This document shows, piece by piece, positions 162 to 11,312 of a stretch of DNA of 38,076 nt (positions are counted from its first letter, which is position 1; every line of letters starts with the position of its first letter). The stretch is from contig NZ_CAKZOT010000074.1 of NCBI RefSeq assembly GCF_937138205.1, positions 1-38,076 on the forward strand, given 5' to 3'. The DNA comes from an uncultured Rhodospira sp. (GTDB lineage Bacteria; Pseudomonadota; Alphaproteobacteria; Rhodospirillales; Rhodospirillaceae). Both the position numbers and the translations under genes were made by a program. The notes beneath the pieces are model-generated. The model worked only from the letters and a program-made list of their open reading frames with translations, was not told the DNA's origin and did no database searches.

Positions 162-219
162 GAGCGTCACCCGGCCGGAGCGGAGGCACGCGGCTGTGGC
201 GATGGGAGACGACGTGTAG

Positions 220-256
220 GGTGGATTCGGCCCGCGCGAACGGGCCAATCCGCCAC
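220..256. repeat. Dispersed palindromic repeat, GTAGGGTGGATT type
   Basis: The arms GGATTCGGCCCG (223-234) and CGGGCCAATCC (241-251) pair with one bulged base around a 6-nt loop. The flanks are GTAGGGTG and GCCAC. The sequence resembles the common proteobacterial intergenic repeat of GTAGGGTGGATT...AATCCGCCAC type. It sits 59 bp after the repeat ending at 161, so two repeat families are stacked here. Family assignment rests on recall; the hairpin is seen directly. Confidence 0.55.
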
Positions 257-316
257 CGGTCCCGGACACGGCGACTTGCGCCTGCGGCACGAAGCCGGCC
301 CACGGCCTCCAATACC

Positions 317-1144
317 TCAATCATTGTAGCATGCGGACCCAGCAAGATCGAGCATCTCTTCTTTTAAAATAGTCAACTTTTTTCTTACATCAACGTCGTC
401 GGGATCCATTCTTAACGTATTAAACAAGATATGAATCTCTACGGCTTTCAGATTAACTCCGATTCTTCTGAGGGCATTCTGCACGCCAATTGCTCTGAAC
501 TCCCACAAAATGTTATAGAAGGGGTTGTCAGAGGAAGAAATTCTGTCATACAATTTGACATCTTGAGAGTTTTGAATGATTAGTTCTCTTATATCCTCTG
601 GGAGTTCGTCAAATACTTTATCGATTTCATCAAGTACGTTTACAACGTACCCTAAGTTCTCTCTGACTGCGAAGATGTGGTGTAAGGGATCTCTATGAAC
701 GTCAACCTCCATTGCCTCGTTAACTTCTTTAAGCCACAATGAGTTTATTTTTTCGATGTCGTGATATAGCAAATTCTGTTCTTTTGATATCTGATCTAAT
801 GCCTCTTCTCTAATAGAGAAGGCGCTCTCTCCGAAATTAGATTCGTGTTCCCTCTTCATTTCCCGGAGGACTTCAGCCGAATATATATCTGTGTTGTTCG
901 TTTTTACGTGATGTCTGTAGCAAAGGACGACAAGGTTCTTCTCCGAACGACGTTCTTCGTCGGTCATAGCTGGATTATAACGCTCCCCCTTCGGTTCGGC
1001 CGCTTCAATATGACAGATTTGGGCCACAAAATCGCCGTCATCGTCAACTAGAGGATGATTGCATCCGGGGAATGCGCACTGGTTTCCCGTTTTGGCAAAT
1101 AGACTGCGAAATGTCTCTTTGGTATGCGCCAATCGAGCCATCAT
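317..1144 (-). CDS. HNH endonuclease-like protein, AT-rich, probably acquired
   Basis: The 275-residue protein has an N-terminal HNH (beta-beta-alpha metal) nuclease fold. Cys23 and Cys28 (CAFPGC), Cys44-His45 (ICHIEA), Asn70 and Cys75-x2-His78-His79 (NLVVLCYRHH) give the usual Cys pairs plus the H...N...H catalytic spacing. Residues 100-275 are helical and charged and match no family I recognise; they may be a sensor or partner domain. Two ATGs stand in tandem after GAGGAA, so translation may begin at 1144 or 1141. The gene is clearly AT-richer than its neighbours and its start lies 30 bp after the duplicated purL end. Both facts suggest transfer. Stand-alone HNH proteins of this shape often occur in defence islands, so an anti-phage role is possible but is inference. 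Confidence 0.7.
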   Translation of the reverse strand: MMARLAHTKETFRSLFAKTGNQCAFPGCNHPLVDDDGDFVAQICHIEAAEPKGERYNPAMTDEERRSEKNLVVLCYRHHVKTNNTDIYSAEVLREMKREHESNFGESAFSIREEALDQISKEQNLLYHDIEKINSLWLKEVNEAMEVDVHRDPLHHIFAVRENLGYVVNVLDEIDKVFDELPEDIRELIIQNSQDVKLYDRISSSDNPFYNILWEFRAIGVQNALRRIGVNLKAVEIHILFNTLRMDPDDVDVRKKLTILKEEMLDLAGSACYND

Positions 1145-1173: not shown

Positions 1174-1344
1174 TCCCTACCCCATAACCCCCGGCAGCCA
1201 CCCTTCGTGCGCCGCGCGCAAGTCGGCCAGGGTCACCTCCGCGCCGCCCATGGTGATCGCGGTGCCGCCCGTCTCGCCGATATGCCGCGCCAACGCACCC
1301 AGCTCCGCCAGCAGCCCCGTCACCCCCTCGGCCGGCACGGTGAC
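1174..1344 (-). pseudogene. Second, diverged copy of the purL 3' end
   Basis: This 171-bp block matches the real end of purL (1908-2090). It carries 14 base differences and one 12-bp in-frame gap, which removes codons for GPDA. Twelve of the 14 differences are synonymous; the other two are Asp to Glu and Ala to Gly. The stop codon (complement of 1177-1179) and three following bases are shared. Matching starts abruptly near 1344, so only about 56 codons are present and there is no start. The divergence pattern is that of two purL genes that evolved under selection in different genomes, not of a decaying local copy. It is probably a remnant of an integration or recombination event at the purL end. 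Confidence 0.85.
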
Positions 1345-1371
1345 GGCGGGCCACGACGGGCCGCGCCGATG

Positions 1372-1599
1372 TCACAAACCGCGCGCGAAGTCCTCAACAC
1401 TCACCCCCGCGTCCCGGATCAGGCTGCGGAGGGTGCCGCGCTTGACGGGCTGCCCCTTGTGGACGGGAACGGACAATGTGGCATCGTGGCCGGGTTTCTC
1501 AAGGATCACATGGCTCCCCCGTCGACGAGCAACACGCCAACCGGCCGCTTCGAATGCGCGGAGAACGTCGGCTCCGGACAGGACGGGAAGGCGGGTCAT
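1372..1599 (-). CDS. hicA: HicA mRNA interferase toxin
   Basis: HicA toxins are small double-stranded-RNA-binding-fold ribonucleases that cut mRNA and stop translation until bound by HicB. This 75-residue protein has the family layout: an N-terminal helix (SGADVLRAFEAAGW), then RRRGSHVIL with the conserved Gly28-Ser29-His30, where the His is catalytic, then a basic HKGQPVKRGTLRSLIRDAG segment. Length is normal. It is the second gene of the pair: its ATG starts 1 bp after the hicB stop and has no strong ribosome site, so translation is probably coupled to hicB. The pair lies between two copies of the purL 3' end. Confidence 0.9.
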   Translation of the reverse strand: MTRLPVLSGADVLRAFEAAGWRVARRRGSHVILEKPGHDATLSVPVHKGQPVKRGTLRSLIRDAGVSVEDFARGL

Positions 1600-1600
1600 G

Positions 1601-1810
1601 CTATACCGCGATGTCCATCACCTGATCATGCGGATCAGAGGCCGTGGCGCGGTCGTTCAGAACCTCCAGGCACAGTTCGATGGCCTCGCGGATGTTCGCA
1701 AGCGCCTCGTCCACGGTCTCGCCCTGGGAATGACAGCCCGGCAGCGCCGGGCAACTGACGACAAACCCGCCGTCCTCCGGGTCGGGTCGGATCAGGACAC
1801 GCAGATTCAT
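1601..1810 (-). CDS. hicB: HicB antitoxin
   Basis: HicB antitoxins neutralise HicA and usually repress their own operon. The protein shows the HicB N-terminal ferredoxin-like fold: an NLRVLI strand, PEDGGFVVSCPALPGCHSQG, then a DEALANIREAIELCLE helix. I start at 1810 because GGAG lies 6 bases before that ATG, giving 69 residues. An in-frame ATG at 1828 has no ribosome site. The protein ends soon after the RNase-H-like half-domain and I see no clear C-terminal HTH or ribbon-helix-helix DNA-binding domain, so autorepression may be weak or may need another factor. Antitoxin-first order is one of the two known arrangements. Confidence 0.88.
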   Translation of the reverse strand: MNLRVLIRPDPEDGGFVVSCPALPGCHSQGETVDEALANIREAIELCLEVLNDRATASDPHDQVMDIAV

Positions 1811-1858
1811 CGGGATCTCCATATCCATCGAGAGGACACGATCAGGACAAGGCGCCTG

Positions 1859-1873
1859 CTCGCGTGCCGCGAG
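1859..1873. promoter_or_regulatory. Palindrome upstream of hicBA
   Basis: CTCGCG-TGC-CGCGAG is a perfect 6+3+6 inverted repeat about 50 bp upstream of the hicB start and 38 bp after the purL stop. It could be an operator for hicBA or a hairpin closing the purL message. The sequence does not tell which. Confidence 0.35.
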
Positions 1874-1910
1874 TCTAGCCTGAAGCGGTGTCGCGACGCT
1901 ATGGGGTTCC

Positions 1911-4118
1911 CTACCCCATCACCCCCGGCAGCCACCCTTCGTGCGCCGCGCGCAGGTCGGCCAGGGTCACCTCCGCCCCGCCCATGGTGATCGCGGCGTC
2001 CGGGCCGGTGCCGCCCGTTTCGCCGATGTGGCGCGCCAGGGCGCCGAGTTCGGCCAGCAGCCCCGTCACCGCGTCGGCCGGCACGGTGACCACATACCGC
2101 CCCTGGTCCTCGCCGAACAGGGCCGCCGCCGACGGCGCGGCGAGCGTCAGCGTCGCGCCCATGTCCCCCGCCAGCGCCATTTCCGCCACCGCGACCAGCA
2201 GGCCGCCGTCCGACACATCATGACAGGCGGTCACCCTACCCGTCTGGATCAGCCCGCGCACCAGGTCACCCACACGGCGTTCGTGCTCCAGGTCCACGGG
2301 CGGCGGCGCGCCCTCTTCCCGGCCGCACACCTCGCGCAGGTACAGGCTCTGGCCCAGCCAGCCGCTCTCGCGCGTGTCCGGCCGCTCGCCGATCACCACG
2401 ATGGCCTCGCCCGGCGCCTTGAACGCCACGGTGGCCATGCGGTCCAGGTCGTCGATCACGCCCACCCCGCCGATGGTCGGCGTGGGCGGGATGGCGCGGC
2501 CCTCGGTCTCGTTGTAGAGGCTGACGTTGCCCGACACGACCGGGAAGTCGAGCGCCCGGCACGCCTCGGCCAGCCCCTGGCAGGCGCCGACGAACTGGCC
2601 CATGATCAAGGGCTTTTCCGGGTTGCCGAAGTTCATGTTGTCGGTGACGGCCAGCGGCCGCGCCCCGGCGGCGGTCAGGTTGCGCCACGCCTCGGCCACC
2701 GCCTGTCGCCCGCCCATCACGGGATCGGCGCGCACATAGCGCGGGGTGCAGTCGGTGGTCATGGCCAGCCCGCGCTCGGACCCGTGGATGCGCACCACCG
2801 CCGCGTCGCCGCCCGGGCGCTGCACCGTGTCGCCCATGACCATGTGGTCGTACTGCTCCCAGATCCAGCGCCGACTGGCCACGTCCGGGGAGCCCATCAG
2901 GGCGGGCAGCGCCTCGGTCCACGGCACCTCGGGCACGTCGGCCGCCGCGACCACCGCCTGCGGCGGCGTCGGCTCCCACGGACGGTCGTACTCGGGCGCC
3001 GCCTCGGCCAGCGGGTCGATGGGCAGGTCGGCCACCGTCTCGCCGTACCACGTCAGCACCATGCGCCCGGTGTCGGTCAGGTGGCCGATGACGGCGAAGT
3101 CCAGGCCCCACTTGCGGAAGATGGCCTCGGCCACCGGCTCCTTGCCCGGTTCCAGGACCATCAACATGCGTTCCTGGCTTTCCGAGAGCATGAGTTCGTA
3201 GGGCGTCATGCCCTCTTCGCGCATGGGCACGCGGTCCAGCGTCAGTTCGACGCCCAGGCCGCCCTTGGACGCCATCTCGAACGACGACGAGGTCAGGCCG
3301 GCCGCCCCCATGTCCTGGATGGCGACGATGACGTCGGTGGCCATCAGCTCCAGGCAGGCCTCGATCAGGAGCTTTTCCGTGAACGAGTCTCCGACCTGCA
3401 CCGTGGGGCGCTTTTCCTCCGAATCGGCGTTGAACTCGGCCGAGGCCATGGTCGCCCCATGGATGCCGTCGCGGCCGGTCTTGGAGCCGACGTAGACCAC
3501 CGGGTTCCCCACCCCGCTGGCCTTGGAATAGAAAATGCGGTCGGCGGGGGCGATGCCCACGGTCATGGCGTTGACCAGGATGTTGCCGTTGTAGTCGGGG
3601 TGGAAGTTGACCTCGCCGCCCACGGTGGGCACGCCCACACAGTTGCCATAGCCGCCGATGCCGGCCACCACGCCCGAAATCAGGTGGCGCGTCCTGGGGT
3701 GGTCGGGGGCGCCGAAGCGCAGCGCGTTCAGGTTGGCCACCGGCCGCGCGCCCATGGTGAACACGTCGCGGAGAATCCCGCCCACACCGGTCGCCGCGCC
3801 CTGATAGGGCTCGATGAAGCTGGGGTGGTTGTGGCTTTCCATCTTGAAGACGGCGGTCAGGCCGTCGCCGATGTCGATGACGCCGGCGTTCTCGCCCGGT
3901 CCCTGGATCACCCAGGGCGCGGACGTCGGCAGCGTCTTCAGCCATTTCTTCGAGGACTTGTAGGAGCAGTGCTCCGACCACATGACCGAGAAGATGCCCA
4001 ACTCGGTGATGTTCGGGTCGCGGCCGAGGATCTCCAGCACGCGCTGGTATTCCTCGGCGGTCAGGCCGTGTTCGGCGATGATCTGGGGAGTGATCTTGGG
4101 GGGGGTGATCTCGGTCAT
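1911..4118 (-). CDS. purL: Phosphoribosylformylglycinamidine synthase, large subunit PurL
   Basis: PurL is the ATP-dependent synthase subunit that turns FGAR plus ammonia (from PurQ) into FGAM in de novo purine synthesis. At 735 residues this is the short PurL that works as a PurS-PurQ-PurL complex. Visible hallmarks are SEHCSYKSS with His50, the PGENAGV and [10 protein letters not shown] segments of the AIRS-type ATP site, [12 protein letters not shown], and [11 protein letters not shown] in the second half. The ATG at 4118 overlaps the purQ stop by 4 nt (ATGA), fixing the start; a longer open frame to 4529 only runs across purQ. The last ~60 codons have a diverged twin at 1174-1344, so this 3' end may itself have been replaced during an insertion event. 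Confidence 0.97.
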
Positions 4119-5025: not shown

Positions 5026-5406
5026 ATGACCGGCGAAACGGCGGCGGCCGTCACCGCATCACCGGGCGACGGCGTCCTGGTCGGGAAAGCCGTCCTGCGG
5101 GCCGCCCGCCTTCTTGGCCTCAACAACGTGATCCTCGCCAACGTTCTGGGGATCTCCCAGTCCCAGGTGTCCCGGCTCGATCGGGGCAAGGCGGCGCTGG
5201 ACGGCAAGCCCCTGGAAATCGCGCTGCTGCTAATCCGGGTGTTTCGCAGCCTGTCCGGAATCGTGGGACCGGACGACGACGCCGCGAAGTCCTGGATGCG
5301 CGCCGACAACACCGCGCTCCGGGGCCGCCCCTGCGATCTCATCCAGCGCATCGACGGCCTTGTCAGCGTGATGACCTATCTGGACAGCCATCGTGCGCGC
5401 CTTTGA
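5026..5406 (+). CDS. MbcA/ParS/Xre-type antitoxin
   Basis: This 126-residue protein pairs with the RES toxin that follows. Residues about 20-60 form an Xre-like helix-turn-helix region (KAVLRAARLLGL, NVLGISQSQVSRLDRG). The C-terminal half has the short toxin-binding module seen in MbcA/ParS proteins: an ALLLIRVFRSL helix, a central Trp (KSWMRADN), ALRGRPCDLI, and a closing helix with VMTYLDSH. The ATG at 5026 follows GGGGAGG at ideal spacing; an in-frame TTG at 4984 has no such site. Its 3' end overlaps the toxin by 14 nt, a normal sign of coupled translation. Orientation is opposite to the interrupted purine genes. Confidence 0.88.
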   Translation: MTGETAAAVTASPGDGVLVGKAVLRAARLLGLNNVILANVLGISQSQVSRLDRGKAALDGKPLEIALLLIRVFRSLSGIVGPDDDAAKSWMRADNTALRGRPCDLIQRIDGLVSVMTYLDSHRARL

Positions 5407-6130
5407 TCCGGTGCCGGTCTCCGGCGACGCCTGGCGACTGGTCGAGGACCAGTGGTCGGCGGCAACCGTCCGCATCACCGACAGCTTGGACGAACAGGCG
5501 CGCCTGGAACAGCTTCTGGATCAGACGAAGCCGCCCCTGCCGCCCGCGTGCGATGGGTACCACTACCTGATCGCAACCCCGTTCCGGTATCGCCCTTATC
5601 CCAAGGGGTCCCGGTTTCGGCGGGCGCTTCAAGAGGACGGCGTCTTCTACGGAAGCGATCGGGTGCAAACCGCCCTGGGCGAGTTCTGCTTCTACAGGCT
5701 TCTGTTCTTCCTGGATGCGCCCCAGGCCAAACGGCCCGAAACGCCCCAACAGGCCACGGCCTTCAAGGTCCGTTTCAGGGCCTCGCGCGCCATCGACCTG
5801 ACCACGGCGCCCCTCTCGGCAGAGGCGGATCTGTGGTCGCATCCAACGGACTATGGGGCGTGCCAGGATTTGGCCGACGACGCACGGGCGGCCGGGGTGG
5901 ATGCGCTTCGCTATCGCTCGGTGCGATGTCCCGACGGTGGCATCAATAGCGCCATCCTGGAGATCCGGGCGATTGTTGACCGGCAGCCCCAAGTGCAACA
6001 GACATGGCACGTCCTGGTCAGAGAGACCACGGTGCAGGCGTGGTGCGAGTTTCCGCGCCTGCGGAAAGAATTCAGCATCGCGGACTGGGCAACCACGGAC
6101 GACAGGGTTCCCGATCCCGAATCGCGGTGA
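5393..6130 (+). CDS. RES-domain toxin (NAD+-degrading family)
   Basis: RES toxins deplete cellular NAD+ (MbcT is an NAD+ phosphorylase) and are held in check by Xre/MbcA antitoxins. In this 245-residue protein the family's Arg-Glu-Ser set is visible: the Arg-rich YRPYPKGSRFRR segment (about 66-77), Tyr86 in GVFYGS, Glu97 in ALGEFCFYR, and Ser186 in GGINSAIL. The protein is somewhat longer than the compact RES toxins, with an N-terminal extension of about 50 residues. GTG at 5393 lies inside the antitoxin gene. The downstream gene converges on it with only 43 bp between. Confidence 0.88.
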   Translation: MRAFDPVPVSGDAWRLVEDQWSAATVRITDSLDEQARLEQLLDQTKPPLPPACDGYHYLIATPFRYRPYPKGSRFRRALQEDGVFYGSDRVQTALGEFCFYRLLFFLDAPQAKRPETPQQATAFKVRFRASRAIDLTTAPLSAEADLWSHPTDYGACQDLADDARAAGVDALRYRSVRCPDGGINSAILEIRAIVDRQPQVQQTWHVLVRETTVQAWCEFPRLRKEFSIADWATTDDRVPDPESR

Positions 6131-6173: not shown

Positions 6174-8234
6174 TCACCGCGCCTCGATCTGTCGCGTCGC
6201 CAGAACCGCTCCGTTGGCGACGTCCACATACCGCAGTTCGTAGCTGCCCGGCGTGCCCGGCAGGGTCAGGGCCACGCCGTCGCCTTCGTCGGTCTTCACC
6301 CCGGTGGCCGCCAGCCACTGGAACGGTCCCTGGTCCGGCGCCGCCACGGCGATGCGGTCGCGCTCACCGCCCGGTCCCGTCCAGCGGACGCGGATGGTCT
6401 CGCCGGGAGCGGCCGTATCCGGCGCGTTCAGGGACGCCGCGACGGATATGACCGCGACATCGGCGCTGCCCAAGATGGCACCCGTCTCGCCCAGCCGATA
6501 GCGCACGGCGTAGGACCCGGCGTCATCGGGCGCGGTGAATCGCGCGCTGTCGTCCCGGTCGGCGCGGGCCGCCTCCAGGGGTGCGGCGTCCGGCGGCGCC
6601 TCGGCGGGCACCAGTTCGACGCGGTCATCGCGCCGGCCCGGACCGTCCCAGGACACGTCCAGGGCGGCCCCGGCAACGACCTCGCCCGGCGCCGTCACGG
6701 TGGCCGACAGCGGCACGATTTCCAGGGGCGCGCGGGCGAGCACACGCCGGCCTTCGTTCAGGACGTAGCGGACTTCATACAGCCCGGGTTCGCCCGGGGC
6801 CTGAACCTGGTCCTTTTGGTCCCGGCTGCTGGCGCGCTTGTAGCTGCCGACCTCATCGTCGGGCGTGCCCATCGGCACGATGGTGACATAGTCGCGGACG
6901 CCCACCGTGGGATCCCAGGACACCGGCACGCGCGATCCGGCCGGCGCTGTCTCGGGCGCGGTCAGGGTCACGGTGGCGTTGGTCAGTTCGAGGGGCGCGC
7001 GGGCGAGCACACGCCGGCCTTCGTTCAGGACGTAGCGGATTTCATACAGCCCCGGTTCGCCCGGGGCCTGAATCTGGTCCTTTTGGTCCCGGCTGCTGGC
7101 GCGTTTGTAGCTGCCGACCTCATCGTCGGGCGTGCCCATCGGCACGATGGTGACATAGTCGCGGACGTCCACTGTGGGATCCCAGGACACCGGCACGCGC
7201 GATCCGGCCGGCGCCGTCTCGGGCGCGGTCAGGGTGACGGCGGCGTTGGTCAGTTCGAGGGGCGCCCGGGCGAGCACACGCCGGCCTTCGTTGAGGACGT
7301 AGCGGATTTCATACAGCCCGGGGTCGCTCGGGGCCTGAACCTGGTCTTTTTGGTCTCGGCTGCTGGCGCGTTTGTAGCTGCCGATTTCGTCGTCGGGGGT
7401 GCCCCTCGGCACGATGGTGACATAGTCGCGGGGCGTGACGGTCGGGTCCCACGACACCGCGACGCGCGATCCGGCCGGGGCGGTGGCCGGCGCCGTCAAG
7501 GTGACCTCCGGCGCCGGTGTCTCGGGCTCTGGTTGGGGGGCGGGTTCGGGCTCCGATTCTGGCGCGGCTGTGACCTCGAACAACGCCTCCTGGAGCGAGC
7601 CGGCGTCGTCGGCCGTGCGGAACGTGCCCCCGGTGTTCTCCGCCAGACAGCGCAGTTGTGCCTGGTCCTCCGGCGCGTCGACGTCGAATCCGATGACATG
7701 GGCGGTGAAGTCGATACCGGCGGCCTCCAGGGCCTCGGCCACGGCGCAGGGGTCGCGGTCGCAGGTCTCGCGGCCATCGGAAATCAGCACGACCGTGGCC
7801 GCGTTCTCCTCGTATCGCAGGGCCTCGGCGGCGCGCCGGACGGCGTCGGAGAGAGGGGTCTTGCCCTTCGGGTTGAGGCCCTCGACGGCGGCACGGATGG
7901 CGTCGCGGTTGCCCGTGCCGGCGGGCACCAGCTCCTCGATGTCGGCGCAATCCCCTTTCCGGTTATGCCCGTAGGCCCACAGGCCGAGCGTCTGGTCCGC
8001 CGGCAAGGTGCCCAGCAACTCGCCCACCACCTCGCGCGCGATGGTGATCTTGTGACCGCCCGCGATCTGCTGCCACATCGACCCGGAGGCGTCCAGGACG
8101 AGCACGGTGCGCGGCGGTTCGGGGGCTTGCGCGCGCGCCGGATCAGCCGTCGTCACCGCGACCAGAAAGGCGGTGAACCCCAGGACGAGACCGGCCGCCA
8201 GGGCGACGCGACCGAGGTGGATGGGCACGGTCAT
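6174..8234 (-). CDS. Exported von Willebrand A protein with tandem repeat domains
   Basis: This 686-residue protein starts with a signal peptide (about 1-35, hydrophobic 8-29, ending ARA). A vWA domain (about 42-220) follows, with a complete metal-ion adhesion site: Asp48-x-Ser50-x-Ser52 (DASGS), Thr126 (GKTPLSD) and Asp153 (SDGRE). Cys residues at 96, 158, 163 and 196 may form disulfides. An acidic Pro/Glu linker (225-243) leads to five tandem units of about 89 residues. Units one to three (244-332, 333-421, 422-510) are nearly identical and units four and five (511-686) are diverged. Each has a beta-sandwich look (TAPAGSRVPVSWDP, GLYEIRYVLNEGRRVLARAP). The ATG at 8234 follows GGAGGG. A periplasmic or surface adhesion role is likely; the ligand is unknown. 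It lies between purS and purQ. Confidence 0.85.
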   Translation of the reverse strand: MTVPIHLGRVALAAGLVLGFTAFLVAVTTADPARAQAPEPPRTVLVLDASGSMWQQIAGGHKITIAREVVGELLGTLPADQTLGLWAYGHNRKGDCADIEELVPAGTGNRDAIRAAVEGLNPKGKTPLSDAVRRAAEALRYEENAATVVLISDGRETCDRDPCAVAEALEAAGIDFTAHVIGFDVDAPEDQAQLRCLAENTGGTFRTADDAGSLQEALFEVTAAPESEPEPAPQPEPETPAPEVTLTAPATAPAGSRVAVSWDPTVTPRDYVTIVPRGTPDDEIGSYKRASSRDQKDQVQAPSDPGLYEIRYVLNEGRRVLARAPLELTNAAVTLTAPETAPAGSRVPVSWDPTVDVRDYVTIVPMGTPDDEVGSYKRASSRDQKDQIQAPGEPGLYEIRYVLNEGRRVLARAPLELTNATVTLTAPETAPAGSRVPVSWDPTVGVRDYVTIVPMGTPDDEVGSYKRASSRDQKDQVQAPGEPGLYEVRYVLNEGRRVLARAPLEIVPLSATVTAPGEVVAGAALDVSWDGPGRRDDRVELVPAEAPPDAAPLEAARADRDDSARFTAPDDAGSYAVRYRLGETGAILGSADVAVISVAASLNAPDTAAPGETIRVRWTGPGGERDRIAVAAPDQGPFQWLAATGVKTDEGDGVALTLPGTPGSYELRYVDVANGAVLATRQIEAR
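6705..7505 (-). repeat. Three tandem near-identical 267-bp coding repeats
   Basis: The units are 7505-7239, 7238-6972 and 6971-6705, each 89 codons of the vWA protein. Long words recur almost unchanged at DNA level, for example GGCGAGCACACGCCGGCCTT and CTGGTCCTTTTGGTCCCGGC. This indicates recent duplication or ongoing gene conversion, and unit number may vary between strains. Confidence 0.9.
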
Positions 8235-8330
8235 CGAACACCCTCCGCACACTGATGGCAGTGAAATGATAGTCACGTGCAATCGTGCGGGACCGAGGCG
8301 CCGGGTGTCAAGCCACGGGCGGGGCGCCGA

Positions 8331-8573
8331 TCAGGCGTCCACCTCGATCCGGTAGGTCTCGATGACGGTATTCGCCAGCAGTTGGCGGCACATGTCGTCC
8401 ACGCGCGCTCGCGCCGTCTCGGCGTCGGTGTCGTCCAGGTCCAGGTCGATCACCTTGCCCTGGCGGGCCTCCTTCACGCCATCGAACCCCAGCGACTGGA
8501 GCGCATTGGCGATGGCCTTGCCCTGCGGGTCGAGCACACCGGGCTTCAGGGTGACATGAACGCGCGCCTTCAC
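8331..8573 (-). CDS. purS: Phosphoribosylformylglycinamidine synthase subunit PurS
   Basis: PurS is the small structural subunit that bridges PurQ and PurL in the FGAM synthase complex. The 80-residue protein has the standard form: a KARVHVTLKPGVLDPQGKAI start, LQSLGFDGVKEARQGKVIDL in the middle, then an acidic DDTDAETARARVDDMCRQLLANTVIE segment. GTG at 8573 follows GAGGAG, which decides the start. purC lies 50 bp upstream. The expected downstream neighbour purQ is displaced by the vWA and RES/Xre genes. Confidence 0.95.
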   Translation of the reverse strand: MKARVHVTLKPGVLDPQGKAIANALQSLGFDGVKEARQGKVIDLDLDDTDAETARARVDDMCRQLLANTVIETYRIEVDA

Positions 8574-10967: not shown

Positions 10968-11312
10968 ATGAGTGATCCGTTCCGCGAGCGCGAAAAGGCG
11001 TTCGAGGCGAAATACGAACACGACGAGGCCCTGCGGTTCCGCATCACGACGCGCCGCAACAAGCTGCTGGGGCTGTGGGCGGCCGGGGAACTCGGCCTGA
11101 CCGGCGCCGAGGCCGAGGCTTACGCGCACAGCCTGATCGAATACGACCTGACCCACGCCGGCAGCACCGATCTGCTGGACAAGGTGCGCACCGATCTGAC
11201 GGCCCGGGGCATCGAGATCTCGCACCACCGCCTGGACCTGCGGGCGGCCAAGCTGCTGCACGAGGCCGAGGCGCAGATCAACGCCGAACTGGTCGGCTCT
11301 GCGCCGCGCTGA
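10968..11312 (+). CDS. DUF1476 protein, ATPase inhibitor subunit zeta
   Basis: This is the alphaproteobacterial zeta subunit family, which inhibits ATP hydrolysis by the F1-ATPase. The 114-residue protein starts SDPFREREKAFEAKYEHDE, the inhibitory N-terminal helix, followed by RFRITTRRNKLLGLWAA and a helical bundle ending in AEAQINAELVG. Length is close to the usual 105-110. A GAGGGGACAAGG site precedes the ATG. DUF1476 beside purC is a conserved gene order in Rhodospirillales, which anchors the position of the split purine cluster. Confidence 0.95.
   Translation: MSDPFREREKAFEAKYEHDEALRFRITTRRNKLLGLWAAGELGLTGAEAEAYAHSLIEYDLTHAGSTDLLDKVRTDLTARGIEISHHRLDLRAAKLLHEAEAQINAELVGSAPR

Follow-up and report, generated by a model that had tools for sequence, protein, structure and literature searches.

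How small toxin–antitoxin pairs that lack mobility genes enter bacterial chromosomes is, to our knowledge, poorly known, and the locus examined here raises that question in a specific form: by what route did a hicBA pair come to lie exactly between two diverged copies of the 3′-end of a purine biosynthesis gene, purL? The locus belongs to a stretch of 38,076 nucleotides, called the window here, which is contig C74 of the 118-contig draft genome of an uncultured Rhodospira sp. (GCF_937138205.1) and whose first base is the first base of that contig. The arrangement consists of the following features:

317–1144, minus strand: candidate HNH nuclease ORF, 275 amino acids, AT-rich, starting 32 nucleotides after the outer purL stop codon.
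1174–1344, minus strand: outer, displaced copy of the purL 3′-end, with its stop codon at 1177–1179.
1345–1371, minus strand: linker of 27 nucleotides from the hicA stop codon to the displaced copy.
1372–1599, minus strand: predicted hicA toxin gene, 75 amino acids (PF07927, 2.4e-19).
1601–1828, minus strand: predicted hicB antitoxin gene, 75 amino acids (PF15919, HicB-like domain, 6.4e-11, profile positions 3–55 of 123).
1829–1910, minus strand: spacer of 82 nucleotides between the purL stop codon and hicB.
1908–2090, minus strand: inner copy of the repeated purL 3′-end, comprising the last 180 nucleotides of the gene and 3 nucleotides past the stop codon.
1911–4118, minus strand: intact purL, 735 amino acids, with the inner 3′-end (NCBIfam equivalog NF002290).

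A first reading of the DNA, made from the sequence only, had held that 1174–1344 repeats about the last 180 bp of purL (1908–2090), and this is confirmed both by comparing the window with itself and by searching the genome. The self-comparison returns direct repeats pairing 1174–1262 with 1908–1996 at 97% identity and 1260–1344 with 2006–2090 at 87%, and when purL DNA is searched against its own genome, 1174–1344 is the top secondary match (E 3.1e-57), the next standing at 1.1e-7. The gene carrying the inner copy encodes a full-length PurL (NF002290, 1042 bits against a cut-off of 648). The repeat extends through the stop codon to three bases past it; it contains an identical stretch of 34 bp and, at its 5′ boundary, 17 bp that are identical. 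The earlier count of 14 substitutions, 12 of them synonymous, with a 12-bp in-frame gap agrees with our codon alignment, where 14 codons differ by one base each (12 synonymous, 2 non-synonymous) and the gap spans 12 nucleotides; another placement of the gap gives 15 differences rather than 14. At the inner edge of the outer copy, the BLAST homology to purL ends at 1344; a gapped alignment extends it weakly, which we take to be chance.

The interval between the copies is 563 bp long and, as had been claimed, holds hicB and hicA, each with a Pfam match. The likeness to type II HicBA toxin–antitoxin systems lies in the HicA and HicB domains, in the adjacency of the genes and in their order, hicB–hicA; compared with known systems of this kind the window's proteins show nothing unusual, and the location alone stands out. 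The GSH stretch of HicA aligns with that of the solved HicA3 (E 5.5e-4), and a search of NCBIfam with HicA at E 0.01 gave no match. A consensus scan of 1100–2100 found neither a sigma-70-like promoter nor a terminator-like site, and Pfam gave nothing for three further mechanical ORFs that overlap the inter-copy interval or its borders. Between the copies, ORF matches are to HicA and HicB only, so that the remark that no integrase is seen also holds there. Five congeners (G001–G005) give no match to HicB at E 1e-8. One of them, G003, has a 70-nucleotide DNA match to hicB (E 2e-4), and in the window genome itself (G000) contig C10 gives another HicB-like match, a diverged one.

It is informative to look at what lies on the far side of the outer copy. 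The HNH ORF runs in the same direction as purL, and its GC content is 0.38–0.48, compared with 0.71–0.76 for purL and about 0.65 for hicBA. In its N-terminal part it is similar to candidate defence nucleases (PADLOC PDC-M68A, 3.4e-26) and to a solved HNH endonuclease (9om4, 1.4e-7); searches of Pfam and NCBIfam gave no match, and neither did the five congeners at E 1e-20. Each of these congeners yielded a single purL end, with other genes downstream: a DUF2806 gene in G004, a gene for a pentapeptide protein in G003, a radical SAM protein in G005, an aminotransferase in G001, and in G002 an ORF with no Pfam match that is open at the contig end. The sequence-only reading had also proposed looking for genomes in which purL is directly followed by bolA. 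Such genomes exist: among 162 loci, bolA lies at most 200 nucleotides after purL in 83, at a greater distance in 21, and is missing from the downstream DNA available for 58. In the window and the five congeners there is no bolA downstream of purL within the 0.5–8.6 kb available per genome. Close to the contig end, window positions 211–305 contain a dispersed repeat: a query of 180–345 has 8 matches in the window genome, 18 in G004 and 9 in G002, with no match in G001, G003 or G005.

One conceivable origin of two such copies is local: the genome's own purL end would have been duplicated and hicBA inserted between the duplicates afterwards. The pattern of substitutions bears directly on this. 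When the codon changes are polarised against G004, the nearest congener, the outer lineage receives six, all of them synonymous, and the inner lineage six, two of them non-synonymous; two more, both synonymous, can be assigned to neither. Given that 29–32% of random changes would be synonymous, six of six has a probability of about 0.001 under neutrality. Because all the outer changes are synonymous, the displaced copy appears to have evolved inside a working purL and to have been part of a functional gene until recently, in line with the earlier view that the two copies were both working coding sequence while they evolved. Judged by these substitutions, duplication followed by decay is an unlikely origin for the outer copy. 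Local duplication with later hicBA insertion does draw some support from a GCG codon missing from both inner and outer copies and from their being weakly nearest to each other in a tree of purL tails, but the all-synonymous outer changes (P about 0.001 for a neutral copy) and the in-frame gap oppose it, and we regard it as very unlikely.

The same comparisons say less about which copy is foreign. The inner and outer copies differ at 14 of 168 nucleotides, similar to whole purL between the window and G004 (167 of 2190), and they are slightly nearer to each other than to G004. The 12-nucleotide gap is also found in the purL genes of G001, G003 and G005. In a tree of 13 tails the inner, outer and G004 branches are equally short (0.055, 0.049 and 0.048) and form a trichotomy. 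Grouping of inner with outer has support of 73/71, and neither inner with G004 (p-AU 0.17) nor outer with G004 (p-AU 0.31) is rejected. A tree of this kind had been put forward as an arbiter, transfer being favoured if one copy grouped with another species and tandem duplication if the two were nearest neighbours; it comes down on neither side. Along the inner purL, divergence from G004 is 7.6% overall, with 10.7% in the last 60 codons and 7.4% elsewhere (19 of 177 against 148 of 2013 nucleotides), a difference that is not significant (Fisher p 0.11).

A second case bears on how the arrangement arose. That different cargo would be found between duplicated purL ends elsewhere had been predicted, and Magnetospirillum sp. 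UT-4 (genome G139, locus L053) provides it. There, a displaced purL tail of 110 bp (85% identity, E 7e-33) lies 3.2 kb downstream of purL, and the DNA between the copies (L053:8289–11153) contains two ORFs, one of 518 amino acids with weak WD40-like Pfam matches and one of 435 amino acids with none. Neither matches an integrase family or any entry in PADLOC or NCBIfam, and the 435-amino-acid protein has no match in plasmid records; together the two may form a gene pair not described before. The displaced tail is followed by EamA, starting about 250 nucleotides on, then by bolA and grxD. Among 12 other Magnetospirillum loci, EamA and bolA follow purL in nine; L135 and L140 have neither, and L134 offers only 933 nucleotides of downstream DNA. 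In six of the nine, EamA starts 67–201 nucleotides after the purL stop codon, and in the other three farther away. Since EamA, bolA and grxD lie past the displaced tail in UT-4 just as they follow purL in its relatives, the outer copy sits in the native position. An intact purL together with a displaced end is seen in the window as well, the native position of the outer end being shown for UT-4 only. The two UT-4 tails differ by 11 non-synonymous changes (including the stop codon) and 5 synonymous ones over 39 codons, unpolarised, so the displaced copy looks as an older, dead copy would, in contrast to the outer copy of the window. The tails of UT-4 are nearest to each other (93 of 109) rather than to another species, and no donor emerged from this comparison.

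How widespread are such displaced tails? Each locus's own tail was compared with its own downstream DNA. A purL end is present in 166 loci (L076 has none), and 160 distinct loci were tested after four with identical tails and two with under 300 nucleotides downstream had been dropped. Although 15 of the 160 were flagged at loose thresholds, clear copies of the 3′-end are found in two, the window and UT-4; tails under about 40 nucleotides escape detection and contigs often end near purL, so these counts are lower bounds. A significant match in L075 (E 2e-20) is to an internal piece of purL rather than to its end, that in L105 covers only the last ~45 nucleotides (E 3e-5), and those in the other 11 flagged loci are weak or 25–37 nucleotides long. 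Broader searches give a similar picture. Outer-copy DNA matches 19 of 73 genomes of the family, with two purL-tail matches in the window genome only; second DNA matches in G003, G008, G039 and G058 are 24–36 nucleotides long and on other contigs. The protein tail matches 262 of 297 genomes of the order, 17 of them twice, and among these order genomes only UT-4, besides the window genome, has the second match on the purL contig. A tail profile matches 255 of 386 genomes of the class, with two matches in four (the window genome, G468, G636 and G696), those in G636 and G696 including a weak second match, and 53 of 55 genomes of the UT-4 family, with two matches in UT-4 and in G311, where one of the two starts at base 2 of its contig. 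In G468, a further block made up of a purL tail, bolA and grxD (L221:2777–3607) lies on another contig than purL and is 69% identical to the genome's own.

These results can be set against the better-known behaviour of integrative elements. Besides dusA, the protein-coding genes guaA, icd and prfC host such elements at their ends. Integration at the ends of protein genes, for example the 5′-end of dusA, is described in one account (PMC4482086). The window and UT-4 resemble such cases in that the gene is kept or restored, cargo lies alongside and, as in elements that use 3′-ends, the old end is displaced; they differ in that no integrase was found, no core position is common to the two and, in our samples, occupancy is not recurrent. 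One could suppose that a small element integrated site-specifically and restored the purL 3′-end, with the integrase acting in trans or since lost and the 17-bp identity at the repeat's 5′ boundary as the core. A restored gene, cargo and a displaced end are the usual leavings of such elements, but no integrase ORF lies between the window copies, the cargo ORFs of UT-4 match no integrase family, second tails are rare, and the displaced copies begin at different positions in purL, −179 in the window and −116 in UT-4. As there are just two clear cases, the difference in start position argues only weakly against two distinct integrases. We consider site-specific integration unlikely, though not negligible, and the earlier proposal that the purL end may be an attachment site or recombination hot spot is not supported, given the missing integrase between the copies, the differing starts and the tally of clear tails (2 of 160).

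As a control for specificity to purL, other direct repeats were listed in 162 loci (1.74 Mb); a rough check of those in eight loci, too small a number for any claim of enrichment, turned up no clear instance of a truncated gene end. Among the papers listed by literature searches, judged without full texts, none named a purL landing site, and no paper was found that reports purL together with hicBA. Two loci have repeats of other kinds beside purL. In L121 a 247-bp repeat outside the listed ORFs (8198–8440, 11034–11276) starts at the purL stop codon, recurs 2.8 kb on and flanks two DUF2336 genes; in L182 a 92-nucleotide sequence right after purL (692–783) recurs 6.8 kb downstream (7457–7548) at 99% identity.

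Variable starts, the lack of an integrase and a displaced native tail are most simply accounted for by homology at one end and an illegitimate joint at the other. Two reports describe this process, homology-facilitated illegitimate recombination, in three competent species (Acinetobacter baylyi, Pseudomonas stutzeri and Streptococcus pneumoniae) and, at low frequency, in conjugation of Escherichia coli (PMC3240628, PMC6382021). Applied to the window, DNA from a related bacterium carrying the 3′ part of purL followed by hicB and hicA would have entered the cell; one end would have recombined with the resident purL by homology, for which the 34-bp identical stretch could have been the pairing seed, and the other would have formed a non-homologous joint inside the resident purL tail. 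In the product, purL would be intact, either as a hybrid or by replacement, and would be followed by hicBA with the same orientation, by the old resident tail cut at about −179, and by the HNH gene as the resident's former downstream neighbour. One homologous and one non-homologous junction would in this way yield a restored gene, cargo and a truncated end, and the differing starts at −179 and −116 are what an illegitimate joint would give. There is a clear difference from the known examples: those come from laboratory experiments, whereas the event in the window is read from a scar in sequence and no donor was found. We infer the nature of the donor, the direction of transfer, the dependence on RecA and the non-involvement of an integrase.

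Several observations count against capture through purL homology. Besides the missing donor, the inner tail does not differ from G004 significantly more than the purL body does, the inner and outer copies share the missing GCG codon, the UT-4 copies are nearest to each other, and G003 has the DNA match to hicB. On balance we put capture of this kind at about an even chance. Of the earlier interpretation, the part that saw foreign capture is supported by the synonymous divergence, by the lack of matches in the congeners to HicB at E 1e-8 and to the HNH protein at E 1e-20, and by UT-4, while the attachment site is not.

A close rival is a Campbell-type insertion, in which a RecA-mediated single crossover would have inserted a circle carrying a purL tail and hicBA. 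The same architecture would be expected, and one of these reports names circularisation with a single crossing-over among the courses that linear DNA can take in E. coli (PMC3240628). Divergence is also uneven along the repeat in a manner that mosaic halves might leave, with 11 differences in the 5′ 81 nucleotides and 4 in the 3′ 87 (15-difference gap placement), but this unevenness is not significant (Fisher p 0.057), and the purL–hicBA block has no match in plasmid records; on this evidence insertion of a circle is rather unlikely. Searches for a donor extended to phage records, again with no match to the block, and to viral contigs, among which none matching the HNH protein was found. Relatives of HicB occur on seven plasmid records, all below 60% identity, and the HNH protein has partial matches in 176 plasmid records, none covering over 80%.

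It is also worth asking whether the arrangement could be an artefact in which purL ends from co-occurring strains were joined in a draft contig. The fragmentation of the assembly and the position of the window at a contig end invite this suspicion, but the estimated contamination is 0 and the same architecture recurs in a second assembly, that of UT-4, with the usual synteny beyond it. A misassembly therefore seems most improbable.

The surroundings of purL in the window contain further accessory genes:

5026–5406, plus strand: Xre/MbcA/ParS antitoxin gene of a second toxin–antitoxin pair.
5393–6130, plus strand: RES-domain toxin gene of the same pair.
6174–8276: VWA-domain gene beside purQ.

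In G004, G001 and G005, purQ adjoins the stretch leading into purC; in the window the VWA gene lies between them, and the Xre–RES pair lies between purQ and the VWA gene. The VWA gene is found beside purQ in the window genome and in G002 and is absent there in G004, G001 and G005, and the corresponding stretches of G004, G001, G005 and G002 have no match to Xre–RES. Around purQ and purL, the window genome thus has two toxin–antitoxin pairs and a gene for a candidate defence nuclease. No long flanking repeat was seen around Xre–RES, and a duplicated gene end accompanies the purL insertion only.

These observations invite the speculation that the purL 3′-end is a recurrent, integrase-free landing pad in the Rhodospirillales for small toxin–antitoxin or defence cassettes, an idea that we hold to be quite doubtful. 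If it were true, the conserved purL end would supply the homology arm for cassettes riding at the tail of the pur operon, and displaced native tails would count past captures. What the evidence here shows is a scar, not a dedicated pathway; the scar suggests an entry of foreign DNA through pairing with purL. When a cassette is bordered by two ends of a housekeeping gene that evolved independently, a single entry event can be read from the sequence, and the example in Magnetospirillum shows that a search for such scars is feasible. The VWA gene beside purQ has a repeat of its own, a 267-bp unit present 2.8 times at 6720–7478.
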